From Planctomycetaceae bacterium (GTDB lineage Bacteria; Planctomycetota; Phycisphaerae; SM23-33), in NCBI GenBank assembly GCA_039680605.1, contig JBDKTA010000010.1, positions 1 through 64,000 on the forward strand: a DNA stretch of 64,000 nt. Reading direction: 5' to 3'. The first letter of the stretch is position 1. Each line of letters opens with the position of its first letter. The notes under the pieces were generated by a model that worked only from the letters and a program-made list of their open reading frames with translations, searched no databases and was not told where the DNA came from. Made by a program: the position numbers and the translations under genes. Shown in pieces: positions 37,838 to 64,000 of the stretch.

Positions 37838-37976
37838 TTAGCCGCTGAGGTCGCTGAGGACGCTGAGGTAAGAGATTGTAAAGAAAGAAAACTTCCGGTC
37901 GGGCACAATGCCTGGCCGGAAGTTTATTTTATCTCTATCCCACCTCAGCGTCCTCAGCGACCTCAGCGGCTAATAA
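37838..37976. repeat. Nested inverted repeat and bidirectional terminator between rhaA and the DedA-like gene
   Basis: The outer arms are a roughly 32-nt inverted repeat: TTAGCCGCTGAGGTCGCTGA and onward at 37838, and its reverse complement ending CAGCGGCTAA near 37973. The inner arms AAACTTCCGG / CCGGAAGTTT (about 37888-37925) form a hairpin flanked by A/T on both sides, suitable as a terminator for both convergent genes. The GCTGAGGTCGCTGAGG motif recurs at 39043-39075. Confidence 0.75.
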
Positions 37977-55266: not shown

Positions 55267-56526
55267 TCAGCCGCTTTTCAGAGCAATCTCCACTGCTCGC
55301 TCGATATCTCGTTCGGCATACAGCTCAGTGGTATCGATGTTGGTGTGCCCCAGGCCGGCGCTGGTTGCCTCTACGCCGAACTCCTGGCGAATCCTCGTGG
55401 CCCAACTGTGGCGTAACTGATGCGGGTGCCAATAGGGAACCTGCTTGTCAGCCGGAAGATCGGCGTTAGCCCTGTCGATCGCGTTGTGGATCGCATGACG
55501 ATAGCTGCCGGCATCGAAAACATCACCTGCCGGGCGTTTGGGCTCAGCCTTTCTCTTCGCTGCCAAATGCTTGAGGTGTGAAGGATACAGGGGCGTCTTT
55601 CGCTCCGCTCGTCTGGTTTCCTTACGCCATTGCTCTGATTCCTGCGGCGAAAAGCAGTAGGCCTCCGGGTCTTCCTTGATCCAAGGGGCCAGGATCTCCT
55701 GTGCCTGCGGTCCCAAAGGCACCACTCTCGCTTGGTCCAGATGCTCGCATTTGTGACGTTGGGGAATGTAGAGCCAGTACTTCTCCTTGAAGGTGATGTC
55801 ACAAGGGCGAATCGTACAGACTTCGCCGGGGCGCATTCCCGTCAGCCAGTGGAGACGTATCATGGCCCCCAGCGTGGGAGAGCAGTGCTTGAGTGTGGCC
55901 TCCACATGTTCCCACGCCACGGGGCGAACACGTTTGGGGTCCTTGGCCTGGCTCCTGCCCTTCTTCAGCCGGCGAACAGCCAGTAAGCCCTGCCACGCTT
56001 CGACAGTGACCAGTCCCTTCTCGACGGCCCAGCGGTAAGCCTTCTGGACCACGTGCAGGCGGTTGTTCACGGTAGTCAGCGATCTGACCTTACCGCTTGC
56101 ATCCTTGATCAGCGAGTCACGGTATTGAGCCACATCTGGAGGACTCAGTTCTCCCGCCGGTTTCTCTCCGTAGAGGTCCACCAGTTCCTGGAGAGCCATT
56201 TTGACGGTGTGGATATGGGCAGTGACTTTTCCGTCCTTCACGAAGTAGGTGCAGGCGTAGTCCAGGTAGTCCTGGGCCAGGTCTGCCACGGCGTAAACAT
56301 CCCCGTCGACTTCTGGCCGCGGGTCGGTCTTCCACTCATTTGCGAGCCAGTTCTTGAATCGTGCCATCGCTTGGCGCGGAGTTAATTCCTCGGCTGTCCC
56401 AAAGCGATGGGCATACCGCCTAGCTCTTCCAGACTCAGAAATAGTCTGATCACCATACCAAGTCGTTGTCCATTTCATTACCCCGTGGTGGAGCTTGAGT
56501 CTTGGCTCCGTAGGTTCTGTGGCCAT
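55267..56526 (-). CDS. int: Tyrosine recombinase (phage integrase)
   Basis: This 419-residue protein has a SAM-like/core-binding N-terminal domain (KMALQELVDLYGEKP...) and a catalytic domain. The latter contains LHWLTGMRPGEVCTIR (first Arg), HPHQLRHSWATRIRQEFG (HxxR) and LGHTNIDTTELYAE (His and nucleophilic Tyr). The full R-H-R-H-Y set is visible. It would excise and integrate the element at a specific att site. Last gene in the four-gene operon, directly after the excisionase-like gene. Confidence 0.94.
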   Translation of the reverse strand: MATEPTEPRLKLHHGVMKWTTTWYGDQTISESGRARRYAHRFGTAEELTPRQAMARFKNWLANEWKTDPRPEVDGDVYAVADLAQDYLDYACTYFVKDGKVTAHIHTVKMALQELVDLYGEKPAGELSPPDVAQYRDSLIKDASGKVRSLTTVNNRLHVVQKAYRWAVEKGLVTVEAWQGLLAVRRLKKGRSQAKDPKRVRPVAWEHVEATLKHCSPTLGAMIRLHWLTGMRPGEVCTIRPCDITFKEKYWLYIPQRHKCEHLDQARVVPLGPQAQEILAPWIKEDPEAYCFSPQESEQWRKETRRAERKTPLYPSHLKHLAAKRKAEPKRPAGDVFDAGSYRHAIHNAIDRANADLPADKQVPYWHPHQLRHSWATRIRQEFGVEATSAGLGHTNIDTTELYAERDIERAVEIALKSG

Positions 56527-56529
56527 TTG

Positions 56530-56991
56530 TTAACTCCCTTGGCGTAGCACAAGCTGTCTGTTTCCAGCCGGCTTGCGTTCTGAATTGGTCGTGGTTGTCG
56601 AAGCAGATTGCCCCCGCTCTGGCTTGCGGCGCCGGTTGACGAAGTCATCCAGATCTTCCCGGTGGAAGAAATTGAACTTCCCGATCCTGGTGGGCCGCAG
56701 CTCCCGTGTATCGACGTAATGCCGAAGGGTTCTGACTGCGGCCGCCCCATCGTCCGTCACCATGTCCAGGCAGAGATAGATCGCTGCCTGCTGGGCGGTG
56801 AACAGGCCGCTATGGCGGCGGGGGTTGGCTTCCTGGGTGTTCGCGGACCGCTGAACTGGCAGATACCCTTCCAGATCCTGGATTCCATCTGGGGCGATCC
56901 TGGCAGGGGCCACTGGGATGTCTGTCGTAATGTTGCTGGTAGTTTCTTCGCTGCTGTCGAGCGCCTGCGCGCAGTTATTCCGTTGGATCAT
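56530..56991 (-). CDS. Excisionase-like DNA-binding protein (MerR-type HTH)
   Basis: This roughly 153-residue protein starts at 56991 after AGGAGG. The C-terminal 70 residues, FTAQQAAIYLCLDM, TLRHYVDTRELRPTRIGKF and NFFHREDLDDFVNRRR, are the winged-helix excisionase/MerR-like DNA-binding core. Its N-terminal half is disordered and Ser/Thr-rich. Located 3 nt from the integrase start, it is the natural directionality factor for the element. Confidence 0.8.
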   Translation of the reverse strand: MIQRNNCAQALDSSEETTSNITTDIPVAPARIAPDGIQDLEGYLPVQRSANTQEANPRRHSGLFTAQQAAIYLCLDMVTDDGAAAVRTLRHYVDTRELRPTRIGKFNFFHREDLDDFVNRRRKPERGQSASTTTTNSERKPAGNRQLVLRQGS

Positions 56992-57016
56992 TGTTTTGCC
57001 TCCTGTTTCAGGTGGG

Positions 57017-59314
57017 TTAGTTGGTGGATGAATCAGATGGAGTGTCTGAAATACTGTTCGTGGGCGGGGTGTCTGCCGCCGCAGTTGGGCCACCTGATTC
57101 CGGTGGCCCCGTGTCCTCGGGCAGAAGAGCTATCCCCTCCCAGCCACGCCCATATCTTCCTCTGCTTACGGTGTGGCAACCTTTTGCTTTCAAGATCGCC
57201 GCGATGGCTCGGGTATTCAGCGGGGAGTTCTCGCCGATTTCCTGGCAGTATGCCATGTAGGCGTCCCGGAGCGAGGCATTGCTGGTCCAAGTATCGCGAG
57301 CGGGAACGTTGGGAACGCATCTCTCCTCCATGAACTGCTCGAAGGAGTTGCTCTCCTTGCGAAAGCTTTTTGTTGCCTCGCACACACAAGCCGGCGGGTT
57401 CAAACCCGATTTCTGCCACTCCAGGCAACCACAGACTGCCCAGGCCAGGATTCCCGGCAGTTCTTGCCGCAATTTCTCTGTGAGCTTGGTGTCCTGCTGG
57501 TCCTTGGGGATCACCACGTTGAAGGGCACAAGCAAGAGCCTGCGCCAGATTCCCTCGTCTGTCCCCTGAATGCGGGGCTTGTGGTTGGTCATCATGATGA
57601 TCTTGTGCGTGGGTTCAAACTCCCCGAAATCCTCGTACAGCTTTCGAGCCTTGAGCATGTCCCCGCCGGTTAGGAGCTTAACCAGTGCCTCAGAGAGCCT
57701 TTCGCCGGAGTCGGATTCGGAGGCTATAGCGAGACGTAGCCCTTGCAGATCGGCAATCACGTTGGGGGCCTTTTCGAACTTTGACACGGTCAGCAGTTCA
57801 TGGGGTGCAGGACCTGCGTAGTCGCCCATCACCGCCTTGAGCTGATTAAGTAGCGTTGACTTCCCATTGGCGCCGTCACCGTAGAAGATCGGCAGAACCT
57901 GCTCACTTACGCTTCCTGTCAGACAGTAGCCAATCAGTCGCTGGATAAAAGCTATGAGGTCCGCCTCGCCGGCAAAGATCTTGTCCAGGAATGCCTCCCA
58001 CTGTGGGCACGTAGCGGCGGGGTCGTATTCAACCGGGGAGAGGTGGGTGATAAAGTCTTTCGGCAACGAAGGACGAAGTTCTCCCGTTCTTAGGTCGATA
58101 ACCCCGTTATTTACTGCCAATAGCCAGGGGTCGCTATCGAACTGGTCCGGCCTTACGGCGAGTTTGCTACGCGCCAGGTCCACCATGGCCTCCACTCTTG
58201 ATCTGGACTCAGACTTCGTTGCGAAGTCCTCCATGGCCCTCCTTCTTGTCAAATCCTGAACATTTCTGGCTTCCTTGCGGATGGAGAGAATTGTTTGTTC
58301 GGCTGATTTCTGCACCTGCAGCAGGATGTCCCGTTCCCATCTCTTGCCATTCCAAATGAACCAACTGTTCCGTGGCTGGCAGTAGCAAGCCGTGTTGCGG
58401 TGCTGGTTGGCAAACCGCTCGGCGTTACCCAGGTCTGTCAGCTTGATCTCGTCAGCTTTGGCAGCGGGATTCTTAATGCCAGCCTCAAGACCAGAACGAG
58501 TCGTATCGGCGGCCTCATCCTCCGAAAGCCCAGCCTCGATCGCCGCCTCAATGAGGACAAGCTCGACTTGTTTCTTATTCAGACCTTCTGATTCAAGGCG
58601 CCGACCTAGCAAGTATGCTTTGGCATTGAGGGTGTCGTTACGGGAACCTTCCTCGGCCTCCCGCACTTCCTGGATTGCCTTCCGGACAATCTCGTTGCCA
58701 CAGGCCAGGGGTGCGGGATTCTCATGCAGGTCCTTACGTTCCGGTTTCTCCTGCAACGACAGGATTTTCTGGATGATGTCTGCAGGCAGCTCCGATACCT
58801 CTACATCCTGAGGCGACAGCCCTGGAATCCACTGATAGATTTTGCCTGTCTCCGGGTGCACAGAGCCCGGATACACAACCTGGCCACCGTCGGACTTGAT
58901 ATCTATGTTCCCTCCCAGCTTCTTAACTGAGTTTCCAATCTTGCACTTGGGAGCCTTGAAGTAATGGTGTGTGCCTCTGCTTGTCTTGGCTGTTACCGTT
59001 GTCGGCAACCCGAGCGGATCGGTATCCTGATCGATATCAATAACCAATATGCCAGAGGCGGTGCCGGTCCGCAGGCCCACGTTGCCCTTGCTGGCCCACT
59101 CCAGAGCTTGGTCGAGGGTCTCCCGAGGTGCAGTGGGCCATTCCTCCATCAACGGCCTCTTGCCCGCAAGGGGAATGAAGGACCATCCCATCTTGTGTCC
59201 AAGTCTCACATTCTTAACCCGATCAGATTCTTCCACCCCGTAGCGAGAGGTAGGCCTGATATCGGAGGTTTCTGTTGTAGATAGAATCGTGGTTTCGTCG
59301 TATGCCTGGATCAT
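57017..59314 (-). CDS. Primase-polymerase / D5-P4-type SF3 helicase
   Basis: This 765-residue protein joins an N-terminal AEP-type prim-pol domain to a helicase. The prim-pol part has GWSFIPLAGKRPLMEEW, a metal-binding DxD in ILVIDIDQD, SRGTHHYFKAPK, and GGNIDIKSDGGQVVYPGS. An intermediate region with D5_N features follows. The SF3 AAA+ helicase has Walker A GDGANGKSTLLNQL (about residue 478), Walker B/sensor in LAIASESDSGE and an arginine-finger segment WRRLLLVPFNV. Such proteins prime and unwind the origins of P4-like satellites and plasmids. Ribosome-binding site AAGGAGGA precedes ATG 59314. Confidence 0.93.
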   Translation of the reverse strand: MIQAYDETTILSTTETSDIRPTSRYGVEESDRVKNVRLGHKMGWSFIPLAGKRPLMEEWPTAPRETLDQALEWASKGNVGLRTGTASGILVIDIDQDTDPLGLPTTVTAKTSRGTHHYFKAPKCKIGNSVKKLGGNIDIKSDGGQVVYPGSVHPETGKIYQWIPGLSPQDVEVSELPADIIQKILSLQEKPERKDLHENPAPLACGNEIVRKAIQEVREAEEGSRNDTLNAKAYLLGRRLESEGLNKKQVELVLIEAAIEAGLSEDEAADTTRSGLEAGIKNPAAKADEIKLTDLGNAERFANQHRNTACYCQPRNSWFIWNGKRWERDILLQVQKSAEQTILSIRKEARNVQDLTRRRAMEDFATKSESRSRVEAMVDLARSKLAVRPDQFDSDPWLLAVNNGVIDLRTGELRPSLPKDFITHLSPVEYDPAATCPQWEAFLDKIFAGEADLIAFIQRLIGYCLTGSVSEQVLPIFYGDGANGKSTLLNQLKAVMGDYAGPAPHELLTVSKFEKAPNVIADLQGLRLAIASESDSGERLSEALVKLLTGGDMLKARKLYEDFGEFEPTHKIIMMTNHKPRIQGTDEGIWRRLLLVPFNVVIPKDQQDTKLTEKLRQELPGILAWAVCGCLEWQKSGLNPPACVCEATKSFRKESNSFEQFMEERCVPNVPARDTWTSNASLRDAYMAYCQEIGENSPLNTRAIAAILKAKGCHTVSRGRYGRGWEGIALLPEDTGPPESGGPTAAADTPPTNSISDTPSDSSTN

Positions 59315-59327
59315 GTGTGATTCCTCC

Positions 59328-59843
59328 TTAGAGAGCGGGGCTCTGGGCGGGTTTGTAGAAGTGCGGATCGTATGTGGTATGCTGGAGGGAGATTGCCTGG
59401 CTTACGACGGCTTGACCGTACGCCCTGCCATCCTCCGTGATCGCCTGATCCCATCGTGGCCGATAGCGTCTGGAGTGCCTGAACAAGCGATCGATGGCAA
59501 CCGGATCCTTGGCATACCAGAAGGCAAGCTCCACACAGAAAGCCAGGTCGCCCTCCTGGAGACCCAGTTCACAAGCAGGCTCCTTCCCCATCCACAGTTG
59601 GCCAAACTTGAGGGCTCTGGCAGACCGCATGGCTCTGGCGAGGATCTGCTCCTCACTGGGCGTCAAGGCATGTACTGGTCCGGTAAGTGGCCGAGGAATA
59701 TCGCCAGAGGGGTTCTCTGTTGCTGGTATCCCCTCGCTGGCAGGTAAGGTTGCTTGCCCCCTGGTGAAGCCCAGTCCTAGACTATCATGTGCATTCGTGT
59801 CTGTTCCATTCTGATCGGTGCTGCCCAATACTCTGCTATCCAT
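59328..59843 (-). CDS. NrS-1-polymerase HBD-like protein
   Basis: This 171-residue protein has an LAFWYAKDPVAIDRLFRHSR core followed by YRPRWDQAITEDGRAYGQAVV. This matches the helix-bundle domain seen at the end of phage NrS-1 polymerases and related prim-pol proteins ('lafWlgkD...iDrlFR.SgL.R.KWd'). Here it is a separate gene 13 nt upstream of the prim-pol/helicase gene rather than fused. It probably supplies a regulatory or template-binding module in trans. GAGGA precedes ATG 59843. Confidence 0.7.
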   Translation of the reverse strand: MDSRVLGSTDQNGTDTNAHDSLGLGFTRGQATLPASEGIPATENPSGDIPRPLTGPVHALTPSEEQILARAMRSARALKFGQLWMGKEPACELGLQEGDLAFCVELAFWYAKDPVAIDRLFRHSRRYRPRWDQAITEDGRAYGQAVVSQAISLQHTTYDPHFYKPAQSPAL

Positions 59844-60447
59844 GGCGTTGTCCTCATTCTGTCCCTTTCAGTTAGTCATTGTCTGAACATTGGGGGCAAC
59901 TCAGGGGCTTTTCTTTAGCTATTGGCGATTATTGTTCGCCTAAGCCCTATTTTGTTGCGATGAATCATGACATCTACAGTAGCGCGAACCGACAATATGC
60001 GCAAGACAATTCCTGACAATTTCCTAGAGTATCTGTAGTCGCAGTCAGTTTATTCAGAATAGCCATGCTGTGATATTCCTCGAAGAGATCACCGCAGCAC
60101 ACGAGATCCAGCGTTGGCATTGGCATCAAAGGTTGGAGGGCACTTAATCCGGCAGGCATGATTTATCACTGATTATTAGCTGCAAGAGCGGAGTCGAGTA
60201 ACATTACCAGAGATGGTACCATGCCAGAGGGGATTTGGTCAATAGTAAATCCGTGGATTATTTAATTATATTTTATGATGCCGTTGAACCAATATTCACA
60301 AGCTCGCTACAGAGGCACTATATAAGCCCTGGATAATGCCTTGGGATGGCAATTAATGCTCATGAAATGCATCTTCGCAGGCTGCATGCACTCAATAATG
60401 TTGTGTTAAGCAGCATGGGCCCTTTGCCAGGGTGCGGGGCGACCTCA

Positions 60448-60540
60448 TGTTAACGCTGTTAACGCTTCTCCCATTAATTGTTCCAAGAGTGTTGATTGCT
60501 TTGTGGATACTTAATGGAAATGGTGTTAACAGTGTTAACA
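60448..60540. repeat. Paired 9-mer module C (GTTAAC type)
   Basis: TGTTAACGC x2 at 60448-60465 and GTGTTAACA x2 at 60523-60540 face each other across 57 bp. Read from the right on the minus strand, TGTTAACAC x2 is followed by CATTTCCATT. Confidence 0.85.
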
Positions 60541-60660
60541 GCCCCCGTCCAGACACCCCTGGCCTAGCATCCACCCCTCCGTGCCCCCTGCCTCTGGCCT
60601 AGACAGACTGGCCGGCACTCTTGACTACTCCAGCCATCATCATTATGTTCGTGGCCGCGC

Positions 60661-60724
60661 TGGCAGTTCTCCCCCAAACTGCCACGCCTGGGCTTAGCAA
60701 GGTCTCCCCCTACCTTGCCAAGCC
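60661..60724. other. Two adjacent hairpins with near-identical C-rich loops
   Basis: Hairpin 1 (60661-60684): TGGCAGTT - CTCCCCCA - AACTGCCA. Hairpin 2 (60691-60724): GGCTTAGCAAGGT - CTCCCCCT - ACCTTGCCAAGCC with one mismatch. The stems differ in sequence but the 8-nt loops are the same apart from the last base. Strand unknown. Confidence 0.8.
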
Positions 60725-60812
60725 CTCTTTATTGGTTCACGACCTGGCATCTGGAAACTCCCTAAAAACCATTCTCCAGTGGATCGTGAGGCAAATGCGC
60801 ACCACCGGTATT

Positions 60813-61230
60813 CACCCCTGGCCAATACGTTGTCTGCGGCCCAGTAGATCCTGACGACCCACCTCCAGTCGACAGGAGTCGGATCCACCCGGATCCATCC
60901 CCAGCTATATATTGTCTGCAGCTCAGCAACTCCGATTACGTGTTTTCGGTCGACAGGGTGACGTGCATATGCATTGCTGCCCCCTGGCACATTGTCTCGA
61001 TGCCTGCCCCGATACCAATCTCCAGTCAACAGTGGTCCGTGTTTCCGGTGAAGGGAAGCACAGCAGATCATGCTTCCAGGGTGTCTATGCAGCTGGGGCC
61101 CTCTATATCCAGCTATCTGCACAGGCTACCAGTCAACCGTAAGGCAGTTACCACATTCAATGGGGCGAACTGGTTCCGAGGGAGCCTCTATTATTCATGC
61201 TCACTCCCCCTGGCTATCTAATTGACTGTC
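60813..61230. repeat. Array of diverged ~80-bp repeats
   Basis: CCCTGG/CCAGC-(A/T)-rich-TTGTCTGC cores recur at about 60815, 60899, 60980 and 61206, with a shorter TATCTGC form at 61110. A partner motif GTCGACAG or GTCAACAG recurs at about 60868, 60949, 61025 and 61131. Periods are 75-107 bp. Recognition is by eye and the copies are strongly diverged. Confidence 0.5.
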
Positions 61231-61292
61231 TGCATCAGGAAAGACATACTGTGGCCCAGAGCACCATGTAACCTTGAAACGAGGAATAGATC

Positions 61293-61832
61293 ATGCCCAA
61301 CATCGCCATAGCACTTCGTGAAGAGATCAACCGCCTGGCTGCAAAGCAGGTGCGGTTCGGAATGACCAAGGTGAAGCAGGATACCGTGCGCCTCAAGCGT
61401 GACGTAGCCCGTCTGAAGCGCCAGGTTGCAATGCTTCAGCGAGAAAAGACATTCCTGGTCAAACAGGTTGCCCGGACAAGCGAAGTGACTGCACCACCTG
61501 TCGAGAAGCTCCAGAAGATGAGGGTGACAGGCAAGTGGATGATTAGCCTGCGAAAGAGGCTCGACCTGACTCAGGCTGATTTCGGCAAGCTGATGGGTGT
61601 CTCTGGGCAGCAGGTATATCAGTACGAAAGGAAGACAGGGGTATTGCGTCTACGTGAGACCACCAAGGCCGCACTGGCTAAAGTCAGGCAGATGGGCAAG
61701 CGTGAGGCCAGAAAGGCCCTGGAAGCTCAGCCGGTAGCAAAGGCACCTCAGAAGAAGCGCCGGGCGAAGAAGGCTCGCCTGACCAAGGTCAAACAGGTGC
61801 GCAGGAAGGCCAAGAAGGCTTCCAAGAAATAG
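61293..61832 (+). CDS. XRE-family HTH protein with coiled coil and histone-like tail
   Basis: This 179-residue protein has an N-terminal coiled coil (VKQDTVRLKRDVARLKRQVAM with heptad spacing, about residues 26-55). A central helix-turn-helix of the XRE/Cro type follows (LDLTQADFGKLMGVSGQQVYQYERKTG, about 90-120). A C-terminal tail of about 50 residues, rich in K/A/R (APQKKRRAKKARLTK, KQVRRKAKKASKK), resembles H1-type chromatin proteins. GAGG precedes ATG 61293. It is the only plus-strand gene of the element. A role in element silencing or copy control is inferred. Confidence 0.75.
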   Translation: MPNIAIALREEINRLAAKQVRFGMTKVKQDTVRLKRDVARLKRQVAMLQREKTFLVKQVARTSEVTAPPVEKLQKMRVTGKWMISLRKRLDLTQADFGKLMGVSGQQVYQYERKTGVLRLRETTKAALAKVRQMGKREARKALEAQPVAKAPQKKRRAKKARLTKVKQVRRKAKKASKK

Positions 61833-62036
61833 AGCCGCTGGCGCCCACTCCGAGGGGGACAGATGCGCACATGTTCCAGCGCCCCAGCAAGGCGCTTAGG
61901 CGCGCGCTAGCGCCACGATCGGCGTCGGGGGCTACATAGATGCCTTCGGAAGAAGAACACTGATCCTACGCGCCCTGAGGACTCCGAGCGCCGCCCATAC
62001 CAACAAGCTGTAGAAATCTTACATGGGCTGGATCAG
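61833..62036. other. Gene-free segment
   Basis: A GGCGCTTAGGCGCGCGCTAGCGCC palindromic-looking run lies at about 61894-61917. Nothing else is recognisable. Confidence 0.4.
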
Positions 62037-62121
62037 GGTGACAGCGGTGACATCAATTCTGTAAAGTCTTCGCGAGCAGAGAATATATAAATAGTTCTGG
62101 AAAGGCTGTCACCGCTGTCAC
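62037..62121. repeat. Paired 9-mer module B (TGACAGCGG type)
   Basis: GGTGACAGC-GGTGACATC at 62037-62054 and GCTGTCACC x2 at 62104-62121 are inverted to each other: 16 bp identical (GGTGACAGCGGTGACA). A 50-bp AT-rich core containing TATATAAAT lies between. On the minus strand GGTGACAGC x2 is followed by CTTTCC. Confidence 0.9.
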
Positions 62122-62328
62122 CTCCCACGTCAATCCCAGGGCAAGTTCCCGCCTCAGCTCACCCAGGTTTTGACCAATGTTAAGATAGGCAAACCGCTGT
62201 TCTTGGCTTTCTGAGGCCTTTTCACGGGATTCTACACATGCGGGCACGGGTCGATGATAGCTTTCATCTGCGCTAAGTAAATTTGCCGCAACAGGATACG
62301 GCTTGCCAGCGAATCCTCGTCGCCTCAC
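62053..62328 (-). CDS. Possible small protein, unknown
   Basis: This 91-codon frame begins MRRRGFAGKPYPVAANLL and ends across repeat module B (WEVTAVTAF is encoded by the GTGACA direct repeats). No family is recognised and no ribosome-binding site is clear. It may be a shadow of the repeat; kept because nothing else explains the interval. Confidence 0.25.
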   Translation of the reverse strand: MRRRGFAGKPYPVAANLLSADESYHRPVPACVESREKASESQEQRFAYLNIGQNLGELRRELALGLTWEVTAVTAFPELFIYSLLAKTLQN

Positions 62329-62410
62329 CCATGGCCATGCCCCGCGGGCCGGAGCAAACTACGGCCTCTTCAAACTCCGCAACATCCCACAGATGTACCC
62401 AGCCCTGGCC

Positions 62411-62875
62411 TCAATGGCCTTTTGTCGGTTTTGTCAGTTTCTTCCAGAGCCATCGCACTCGTTTTGACATCTGTAGCAACACGCCTTCTGTCACTTCTTG
62501 CATCGGCAGCTGCCCTTGAGAGGATGTTGACAGGACCTTCTCGGGCATCTCCACCTGTTCCACCTGTTCCTTCACTTCCAGCCGTTCCATCACGTGGAGC
62601 AAACCCAGGTCATCTGGGTAACGTCTGGTCGCCAGCCACGTCATGACTGCAACTGCCGCCAGCGGTATCGAAGCACCCATGGACAAGGCAAGCATCCGGT
62701 ATCGCCCCGGAGACAGGTATGCCGAGTCATTATGCTCCTGGGCAGTCTGGGCCATCTCCACAGCGCTACGAGCAGCCAATGCCAGTTCAGTGTTGACCTC
62801 AGGCTCCGGCCTATGGCCACCCGATGCCAGGAAGATCAGGAATAGTACAACCGCAGCAATGATGATCCATCTCAT
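62411..62875 (-). CDS. Small membrane protein of unknown function
   Basis: This 154-residue protein has a TM helix at each of two places: IIIAAVVLFLIFLASGG at the N terminus and ASIPLAAVAVMTWLATRR at about residues 68-85. A charged C-terminal domain ends LTKPTKGH, encoded across the left 19-bp repeat of module A. Its ATG overlaps the upstream gene's stop (ATGA at 62872-62875), so the two are co-translated. No homologous family recognised. Confidence 0.65.
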   Translation of the reverse strand: MRWIIIAAVVLFLIFLASGGHRPEPEVNTELALAARSAVEMAQTAQEHNDSAYLSPGRYRMLALSMGASIPLAAVAVMTWLATRRYPDDLGLLHVMERLEVKEQVEQVEMPEKVLSTSSQGQLPMQEVTEGVLLQMSKRVRWLWKKLTKPTKGH

Positions 62876-63311
62876 GGTTTGTCTCCTGAGGGTGAATGGA
62901 GCAGCATCCGGATCAGCTTCTCAAGGATGCGTCGCAAGTGATGTTCCCTGGCAAACAGCAGCACCAGGACCAGCAAGGCTGTAGATGAGCAGATCCAAAG
63001 GAAGACGGCTGTGGATCTATCTTGCTCAGCCAACTCCTTTTGGGCCACCAGCACACGTCGATCTTGCTGCGTCTCCTGGTGGGCTTTCTGGATCTGCTTG
63101 TTGAGATCTTGTCGTTCCTGGTCAGTACTCTCCTGCATCCTGGCAACTTCTTGCTGACGTTGCCGTTCGCGTTTGGTTTCGGAATCATCGCAGCCGCCAA
63201 TAGCTAACAGGATCACGAGGATCAGCCATGGGGCTGCGCGTATAGCTTCTGATTTCATTGAGGCTCCTTTTAGGGTAGTAGTGGGAAAAGGGCTGACAAA
63301 ACCGACAAAAG
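62419..63311. repeat. Paired 9-mer module A (TTTTGTCGG type) flanking two genes
   Basis: CTTTTGTCGGTTTTGTCAG at 62419-62437 and its exact reverse complement at 63293-63311 (19 bp each, built from near-identical 9-mers) enclose an 855-bp interior that holds both small membrane-protein genes apart from the last codons of the second. On the minus strand the right copy is followed by CCCTTTTCCC. Confidence 0.9.
62872..63258 (-). CDS. Small lipoprotein with coiled coil and TM helix
   Basis: This 128-residue protein starts at 63258 after AAAGGAG, with a signal and lipobox (LLAIGGC). A coiled coil of about 50 residues (ETKRERQRQQEVARMQESTD..., DLNKQIQKAHQETQQDRR) is followed by a second hydrophobic helix (VFLWICSSTALLVLVLLF) and a basic tail. 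The lipoprotein/coiled-coil/TM arrangement resembles spanin-like or envelope-bridging pairs, but there is no direct evidence for that. Confidence 0.7.
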   Translation of the reverse strand: MKSEAIRAAPWLILVILLAIGGCDDSETKRERQRQQEVARMQESTDQERQDLNKQIQKAHQETQQDRRVLVAQKELAEQDRSTAVFLWICSSTALLVLVLLFAREHHLRRILEKLIRMLLHSPSGDKP

Positions 63312-63361
63312 TCTCCCCGCTCCCCTGGCGATTACTAGCAGTAGCCATGGGTGCGGTCGTC

Positions 63362-64000
63362 TCAATTGGCGTTTGATCCGACGCCGCATAGTACATCCAT
63401 CAGGCCATGAAGAGCTTGCGTTCGTCTGGGCAGCGCTTCCAGGTTCCGCCCCTTGACGGCCTCGGTGAAGGCATTGAACAGTCGCCATGCCGTCTGGCCG
63501 CCTTGAGCGAACTCCGCGTGCCGCGGCCGACGCCATTCCTGGAGAACCTCGGGCACGGCAGTGACGGGCACAACCCGGGCATCTACCGCGCGCACGATCA
63601 TGTCGTGGGCTCGCGTATGCGTGACCTTGGTCGCCTTGTATGCCTCGATCCGGTCGTCCTGCTGCTGGCGCAGATCGCCCAGCCGTCCCACTGCACCGGC
63701 AACCAGGCCGGGCAGATCGCGCTCGATGAAGACGGTATGCCGGCGGGCGATCACCACCTCGGCACTGAAGGCCATGTTGTCGCACACGAACACGCCGGAG
63801 CCAACGGCCAGGCTGGCAGGGAAGCTCTTGTCGTGGCTGTTCCGCAGGCCCAGCACCATTCCGTAGTCCTGGTGGCTGTGGCCGTTCGTCACCTGCATCA
63901 GGCCGAAGTATCGAAGGCCGTCGTGAGGCATCGCGTGGGCCTGGTTGACGATCTTCAGCCCGGCGCCGGTCAGTGTGGCTTCCACCTGCTCCAGCAGGCG
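63362..64000 (-). CDS. DUF932-like phage/plasmid protein, truncated by the window edge
   Basis: At least 213 residues; the frame is open to the window end, and the apparent start at 63985 is an internal GTG. Features include the internal segment MVLGLRNSHDKSFPASLAVG and SGVFVCDNMAFSAEVVIARRHT, which resemble the DUF932/TIGR03299 family of phage- and plasmid-borne proteins of unknown function. Composition is GC-rich, unlike the rest of the element, so the element may be a mosaic. Confidence 0.65.
   Translation of the reverse strand, partial: RLLEQVEATLTGAGLKIVNQAHAMPHDGLRYFGLMQVTNGHSHQDYGMVLGLRNSHDKSFPASLAVGSGVFVCDNMAFSAEVVIARRHTVFIERDLPGLVAGAVGRLGDLRQQQDDRIEAYKATKVTHTRAHDMIVRAVDARVVPVTAVPEVLQEWRRPRHAEFAQGGQTAWRLFNAFTEAVKGRNLEALPRRTQALHGLMDVLCGVGSNAN

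Follow-up and report, generated by a model that had tools for sequence, protein, structure and literature searches.

The stretch analysed (the window) covers positions 1-64000 of contig C10 (64,000 nt), a contig of a 5.23-Mb genome. An integrated element of the integrase/prim-pol/D5-helicase type runs rightwards from position 55267, in the order of integrase, HTH_17 protein, primase-helicase, HBD protein, module C, HTH_3 regulator, module B, module A with two ORFs, and a DUF932 gene. Module C sits in the non-coding stretch between the HBD gene and the HTH_3 gene, and the HTH_17 gene occupies the spot where relatives carry an origin-like module. The features are as follows.

55267-56526, minus strand: tyrosine integrase of the element
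56530-57093, minus strand: HTH_17 (excisionase-like) protein, overlapping the 3' end of the prim-pol gene
57017-59314, minus strand: Prim-Pol/D5_N/DUF5906 primase-helicase with a winged-helix-like C-terminal domain; proposed initiator
59328-59843, minus strand: NrS-1-type HBD protein, first in the prim-pol operon
60448-60465, plus strand: left arm of module C, two copies of TGTTAACGC (iteron-like)
60466-60522, no strand: interior of module C, 35% GC against 56% for the element; candidate unwinding region
60523-60540, minus strand: right arm of module C, two copies of TGTTAACAC, then inward CATTTCC
61293-61832, plus strand: HTH_3 regulator, between C and B
62037-62054, plus strand: left arm of module B, GGTGACAGC GGTGACATC
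62055-62104, no strand: interior of module B, 34% GC, containing AATATATAAATA
62105-62122, minus strand: right arm of module B, two copies of GGTGACAGC, then inward CTTTCC
62411-62875, minus strand: ORF of 154 aa with an N-terminal membrane segment, in module A
62419-62437, plus strand: left end of module A, CTTTTGTCGGTTTTGTCAG, within the 3' end of ORF 62411-62875
62872-63261, minus strand: ORF of 129 aa with a lipoprotein-like signal and a coiled coil, in module A
63293-63311, minus strand: right end of module A, the 19-mer CTTTTGTCGGTTTTGTCAG, in the leader of ORF 62872-63261

Three modules with inverted ends of two tandem 9-mers each were located where the earlier note had placed them; its coordinates were exact for C (60448-60540, 93 bp) and A (62419-63311, 893 bp), whereas B is one base longer than given there (62037-62122, 86 bp). 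The module scores of C and B were 34/36 and 35/36, respectively, and the two 19-bp ends of A (CTTTTGTCGGTTTTGTCAG) are perfect inverted repeats. The TTTCC motif described inward of the right arms was found at offset 1 in B, at offset 2 in C and as CCCTTTTCCC in A. An imperfect single pair at 60005-60025, listed together with the modules, is without an inverted partner and was not counted as a module. The grouping of the three as one family is doubtful, since A is nine times longer, encloses two genes, carries its TGAC-like core in the opposite orientation and has no long counterpart in about 180 D5 loci. Degenerate repeats with TTGTCTGC and CTCCAGTCRACAG motifs (families D2 and D4) were observed at 60790-61250 of the window, between C and the HTH_3 gene.

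The right end of the element was not found, and the search for integrase att repeats gave only one 16-bp pair, which was unconvincing. GC skew, used as an origin marker, showed no turn at C or B. No relatives of the HTH_3, HBD and 129-aa proteins were found in viral contigs, and no match was obtained for the DNA of 60300-63400 against plasmids and phages.

The layout had been taken to be non-random, and randomised sequence indeed failed to give C-, B- or A-like modules: over 300 dinucleotide shuffles of the region 55267-64000, a four-copy module scored 31/36 at most, and that once (C, 34; B, 35), and no A-like pair appeared. When 1.145 Mb of the 5.23-Mb genome was scanned, 41 inverted tandem-9-mer modules were counted against 0 in shuffled sequence, with 0 modules at periods 10 and 11 and a smaller excess at periods 6-8 in the same 1.145 Mb; the modules of the genome are mostly 64-280 bp long. 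C and A were single-copy in the genome by a search allowing up to 3 mismatches, and B by an exact 16-mer search only. Nearly all other modules of the size of C and B are members of multicopy families (ACCGCAGAG and GCCGCTGAG, for example), the clear exception being a module next to the D5 gene on contig C71. Dozens of the modules in this genome are short and gene-less, with ACCGCAGAG, GCCGCTGAG and ACGACGAGG as multicopy families; examples were seen at 37840-37971 of the window and at loci L013, L035, L037 and L043, and some share repeats with gene-bearing modules.

The protein encoded at 57017-59314 contains Prim-Pol, D5_N and DUF5906 domains, and its PHROG match is a DNA primase; the element encodes a fusion of AEP primase and SF3/D5 helicase, as pRN1-type replicons do. 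The D5 part has a confident predicted fold (pLDDT 91) that matches AsfvPrimPol and poxvirus E5 helicases. In the C-terminal domain, the helices and strands of the model follow one another as in a winged helix, and the best matches were AsfvPrimPol chains and some winged-helix domains, with weak E-values.

For the survey of other D5-helicase loci, the prim-pol was aligned with three relatives, and 80 genome loci and 80 viral-contig loci were collected (the viral-contig relatives were found with this alignment; with the prim-pol alone as the query there were 0). A locus was recorded as positive at a module score of at least 31/36 between 120 nt before and 480 nt after the D5 stop. The search of such elements for the same layout, proposed by the earlier note as its check, gave a tandem-9-mer module near the D5 stop in 44 of 156 loci, compared with 0 in shuffles and 2 of 136 upstream control zones; about 70% of the D5 loci had no module above the threshold. 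The modules are 83-121 bp long (median, 97.5 bp), start at a median of 9.5 nt after the helicase stop codon and have interiors that are AT-richer than their loci. At a score of at least 33, there were 34 modules near the D5 stop (about 96 kb) versus 3 elsewhere (about 1.55 Mb), two of these three lying within 300 nt of the end of the D5 gene and one just upstream of its start. Period 9 was dominant, with some modules at 7, 8 and 10 and none at 11-13, and the 9-mers vary between elements (GTGTATAGT, GGAACGGAA, GTGAACGAT, GCTGACGCA and GTGACGGAT, among others).

The expected covariation of inverted partners was examined on loci chosen by a tandem pair near the stop only, and not by the second arm. 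The locus's own arm matched at 14/18 or more in 17 of 41 cases, whereas arms taken from other loci gave 30 of 1640 and the direct orientation gave 1 of 41; thus the layout is kept while the word changes, in step at the two ends of a module. The likewise anticipated TTTCC was counted no more than 20 nt inward in 13 of 88 arms, against 0.9 expected. A second set of 20 loci of the phylum, partly overlapping the first, had a module at the 3' end in 7, and the two prim-pol sequences of the phylum most closely related to that of the window differed, L342 being without a module by scan and L343 having one with a score of 32. The similarity of the 9-mers tracks protein similarity only among close relatives, and its correlation with the C-terminal domain was inseparable from overall relatedness.

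Some of the loci depart from the usual arrangement of a single module after the helicase gene. At L180 the module is upstream of the D5 gene, and at L105 (8034-8268) two adjacent origin-like modules with different 9-mers (AACTGAACC and AAGTGGACC) follow one D5 gene. L202 (7376-7692) likewise carries a pair of neighbouring origin-like modules following its D5 gene. At the second D5 element of the own genome, on contig C71 (L008, 11794-12019), TGACACCTA iterons flank an AT-rich stretch directly after the helicase gene; the relatives L028 and L029 have a module at the same place.

C and B are probably replication origins of this or of a former prim-pol/D5 element, or one of them a working origin and the other a spare or a relic; by analogy with the D5 loci, a probability of roughly 0.7 is given to this reading. 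C and B fit the D5 set in size, AT-rich middle, inward TTTCC and gene company. Among the mechanisms that the earlier note had considered, replication start sites are supported for C and B by the D5-adjacent layout, the changing 9-mers, TTTCC and the likeness to pRN1, but not for A, whereas for a phase-variable cassette or template copying no positive evidence was obtained among the ORFs scanned. The tandem 9-mers would be iterons, and at each end two of them, in opposite orientation, would be bound by the winged-helix-like C-terminal domain of the primase-helicase. Two head-to-head hexamers could then be loaded and the AT-rich middle melted, at which the prim-pol domain would prime both strands. 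The binding, the melting, the priming and the use of C or B by the element's own D5 protein are what we infer. If each element has its own initiator, as we propose, the layout, the spacing and TTTCC would be kept while the 9-mer drifts.

The position of the two modules is unusual: their distance upstream of the prim-pol operon is about 600 bp for C and about 2.2 kb for B, whereas the usual place is just after the D5 stop. Since the pRN1 origin works when moved (PMC4234260) and the module of L180 is upstream, this position is regarded as a departure and not as a contradiction. A given initiator cannot have its best site in both of two differing 9-mers of an element; L105 offers a precedent for such a pair of modules, but an initiator ought to favour one of them. 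With both modules upstream of the operon and carrying different 9-mers, the assignment as origins is strong by analogy and unproven.

Two other explanations of C and B were weighed against their being origins. They might be gene-less, MITE-like copies of mobile modules, comparable with the families of ACCGCAGAG and GCCGCTGAG, and lack their gene-bearing partner in this element. The dozens of inverted tandem-9-mer modules held by the genome would agree with this, as would the gene-bearing modules enclosing GxxExxY or four-helix-bundle genes, because a mobile element could have acquired such insertions; however, C, B and A each occur once in the genome and so are not multicopy, C and B are both less than 3 kb from the prim-pol operon, and their size, AT-rich middle and TTTCC match the D5 set, which makes a MITE-like origin unlikely. 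Alternatively, the modules could be operators of the HTH_3 regulator (61293-61832) or of another repressor, with paired inverted sites looping the DNA and, for A, sites at both ends of the operon. Such a role is very unlikely: the HTH_3 gene does lie between C and B, and the right end of A is in the leader of the A operon, but a single regulator is not expected to read three unrelated 9-mers, and the layout in other elements goes with the 3' ends of D5 genes.

GxxExxY and four-helix-bundle genes are themselves often bracketed in this phylum. Of 33 GxxExxY (PF13366) loci, 13 had inverted tandem 9-mers on both sides of the gene (L071, L073, L074, L265, L267, L273, L279-L281, L286, L288, L291 and L293, around position 1501-1850), compared with 1 of 1173 random gene-sized windows, and 7 had such repeats at period 8. 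Of 42 four-helix-bundle (PF05635) loci, 19 had inverted tandem 7-mers on both sides of the gene (L075, L081, L083 and 16 of L294-L322, around position 1501-1810), compared with 3 of 1173 random windows; the period thus differs, being 9 for GxxExxY and 7 for four-helix-bundle genes. Both sets of loci come from one phylum and are mostly the best-scoring genes. Several of the repeat families are also present as short gene-less copies in the genome analysed here, and the brackets of the GxxExxY genes look like the ends of small mobile modules. No description of bracketed GxxExxY genes was found in the openly licensed full-text literature; the bracketing of GxxExxY and four-helix-bundle genes may be new, and may merit more attention than C, B and A. 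It is conceivable, though unlikely, that inverted tandem 9-mers are a shared code of unrelated proteins, used by D5 helicases at origins and by GxxExxY nuclease-like proteins at the ends of mobile modules, with A as a further type with other genes.

Module A is outside the explanation of C and B as origins. It encloses a two-gene operon almost exactly, its left end falling within the 3' end of the 154-aa ORF and its right end within the leader of the 129-aa ORF. Searches of 392 genomes and of plasmids gave no homolog of the 154-aa ORF, and searches of phages and of viral contigs gave none of the 129-aa ORF, for which a weak Rz-like spanin match was obtained. No long module like A was found in about 180 D5 loci. 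The likeliest single reading for A, and a tentative one, is a gene-bearing mobile cassette of the general GxxExxY/four-helix-bundle type, carrying two membrane-associated genes. The perfect 19-bp tandem-9-mer ends, the close enclosure of the genes and the length of 893 bp, against about 400-900 bp for the gene-bearing modules, speak for it, whereas neither ORF has a GxxExxY or four-helix-bundle Pfam match, and mobility is unproven since no second copy or homolog was found.

For the origins C and B, the nearest known system is pRN1, a plasmid of Sulfolobus islandicus. Deletion mapping placed its origin in a 100-bp stem-loop, which lies 54 bp downstream of the AEP-primase/SF3-helicase/winged-helix gene and is sufficient in vivo with the replication operon; pRN1 was described as being without iteron structure, and BIP-1 was named as a further case (PMC4234260). 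By our scan, the pRN1 origin stretch holds an inverted tandem-9-mer module that scores 32/36 and spans exactly 100 bp, its stem being two imperfect tandem 9-mers, inverted; no module was found near the place given for BIP-1 by PMC4234260. The earlier note knew of no named system with this design; the pRN1 stem-loop origin and, functionally, the SaPI Rep/iteron origin are such systems. pRN1 resembles the present element in the AEP primase and SF3 helicase, possibly in the winged helix of the initiator, and in a palindrome of about 100 bp with an AT-rich loop (C, 93 bp; B, 86 bp), of which the layout and not the sequence is conserved. It differs in having a single module 54 nt after the replication gene, whereas C and B are two, upstream, and have different 9-mers.

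In SaPI Rep and SCCmec Cch2, the C-terminal domain binds repeats downstream of the helicase gene (PMC7581432). By that description the likeness would be an initiator helicase that reads short repeats near its own gene via a C-terminal domain, and the differences are the other primase types, the SCCmec iterons of 5 nt and the position directly downstream of the helicase gene. Phage P4, with its alpha protein and iteron origin, shares the joining of helicase and primase in one protein and would share winged-helix recognition of repeats (as described in PMC4234260), but alpha carries a bacterial-type (Toprim) primase domain. The MITE-like, GxxExxY and four-helix-bundle modules of the genome are alike in having inverted tandem short repeats at their ends and differ in being multicopy, variable in length and not tied to D5 genes, and in enclosing small genes or possibly deriving from them. 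For bacterial prim-pol/D5 elements, the comparison yields a rule for candidate origins, namely inverted tandem 9-mers whose outer ends are about 97 bp apart, as a rule directly behind the helicase gene, and the drift of the 9-mer at a fixed layout lets the joint change of initiator and binding word be tested. The make-up of the pRN1 stem, a pair of imperfect tandem 9-mers in inverted arrangement, further suggests a single design behind its 'stem-loop' origin and the 'iteron' origins of the satellites.
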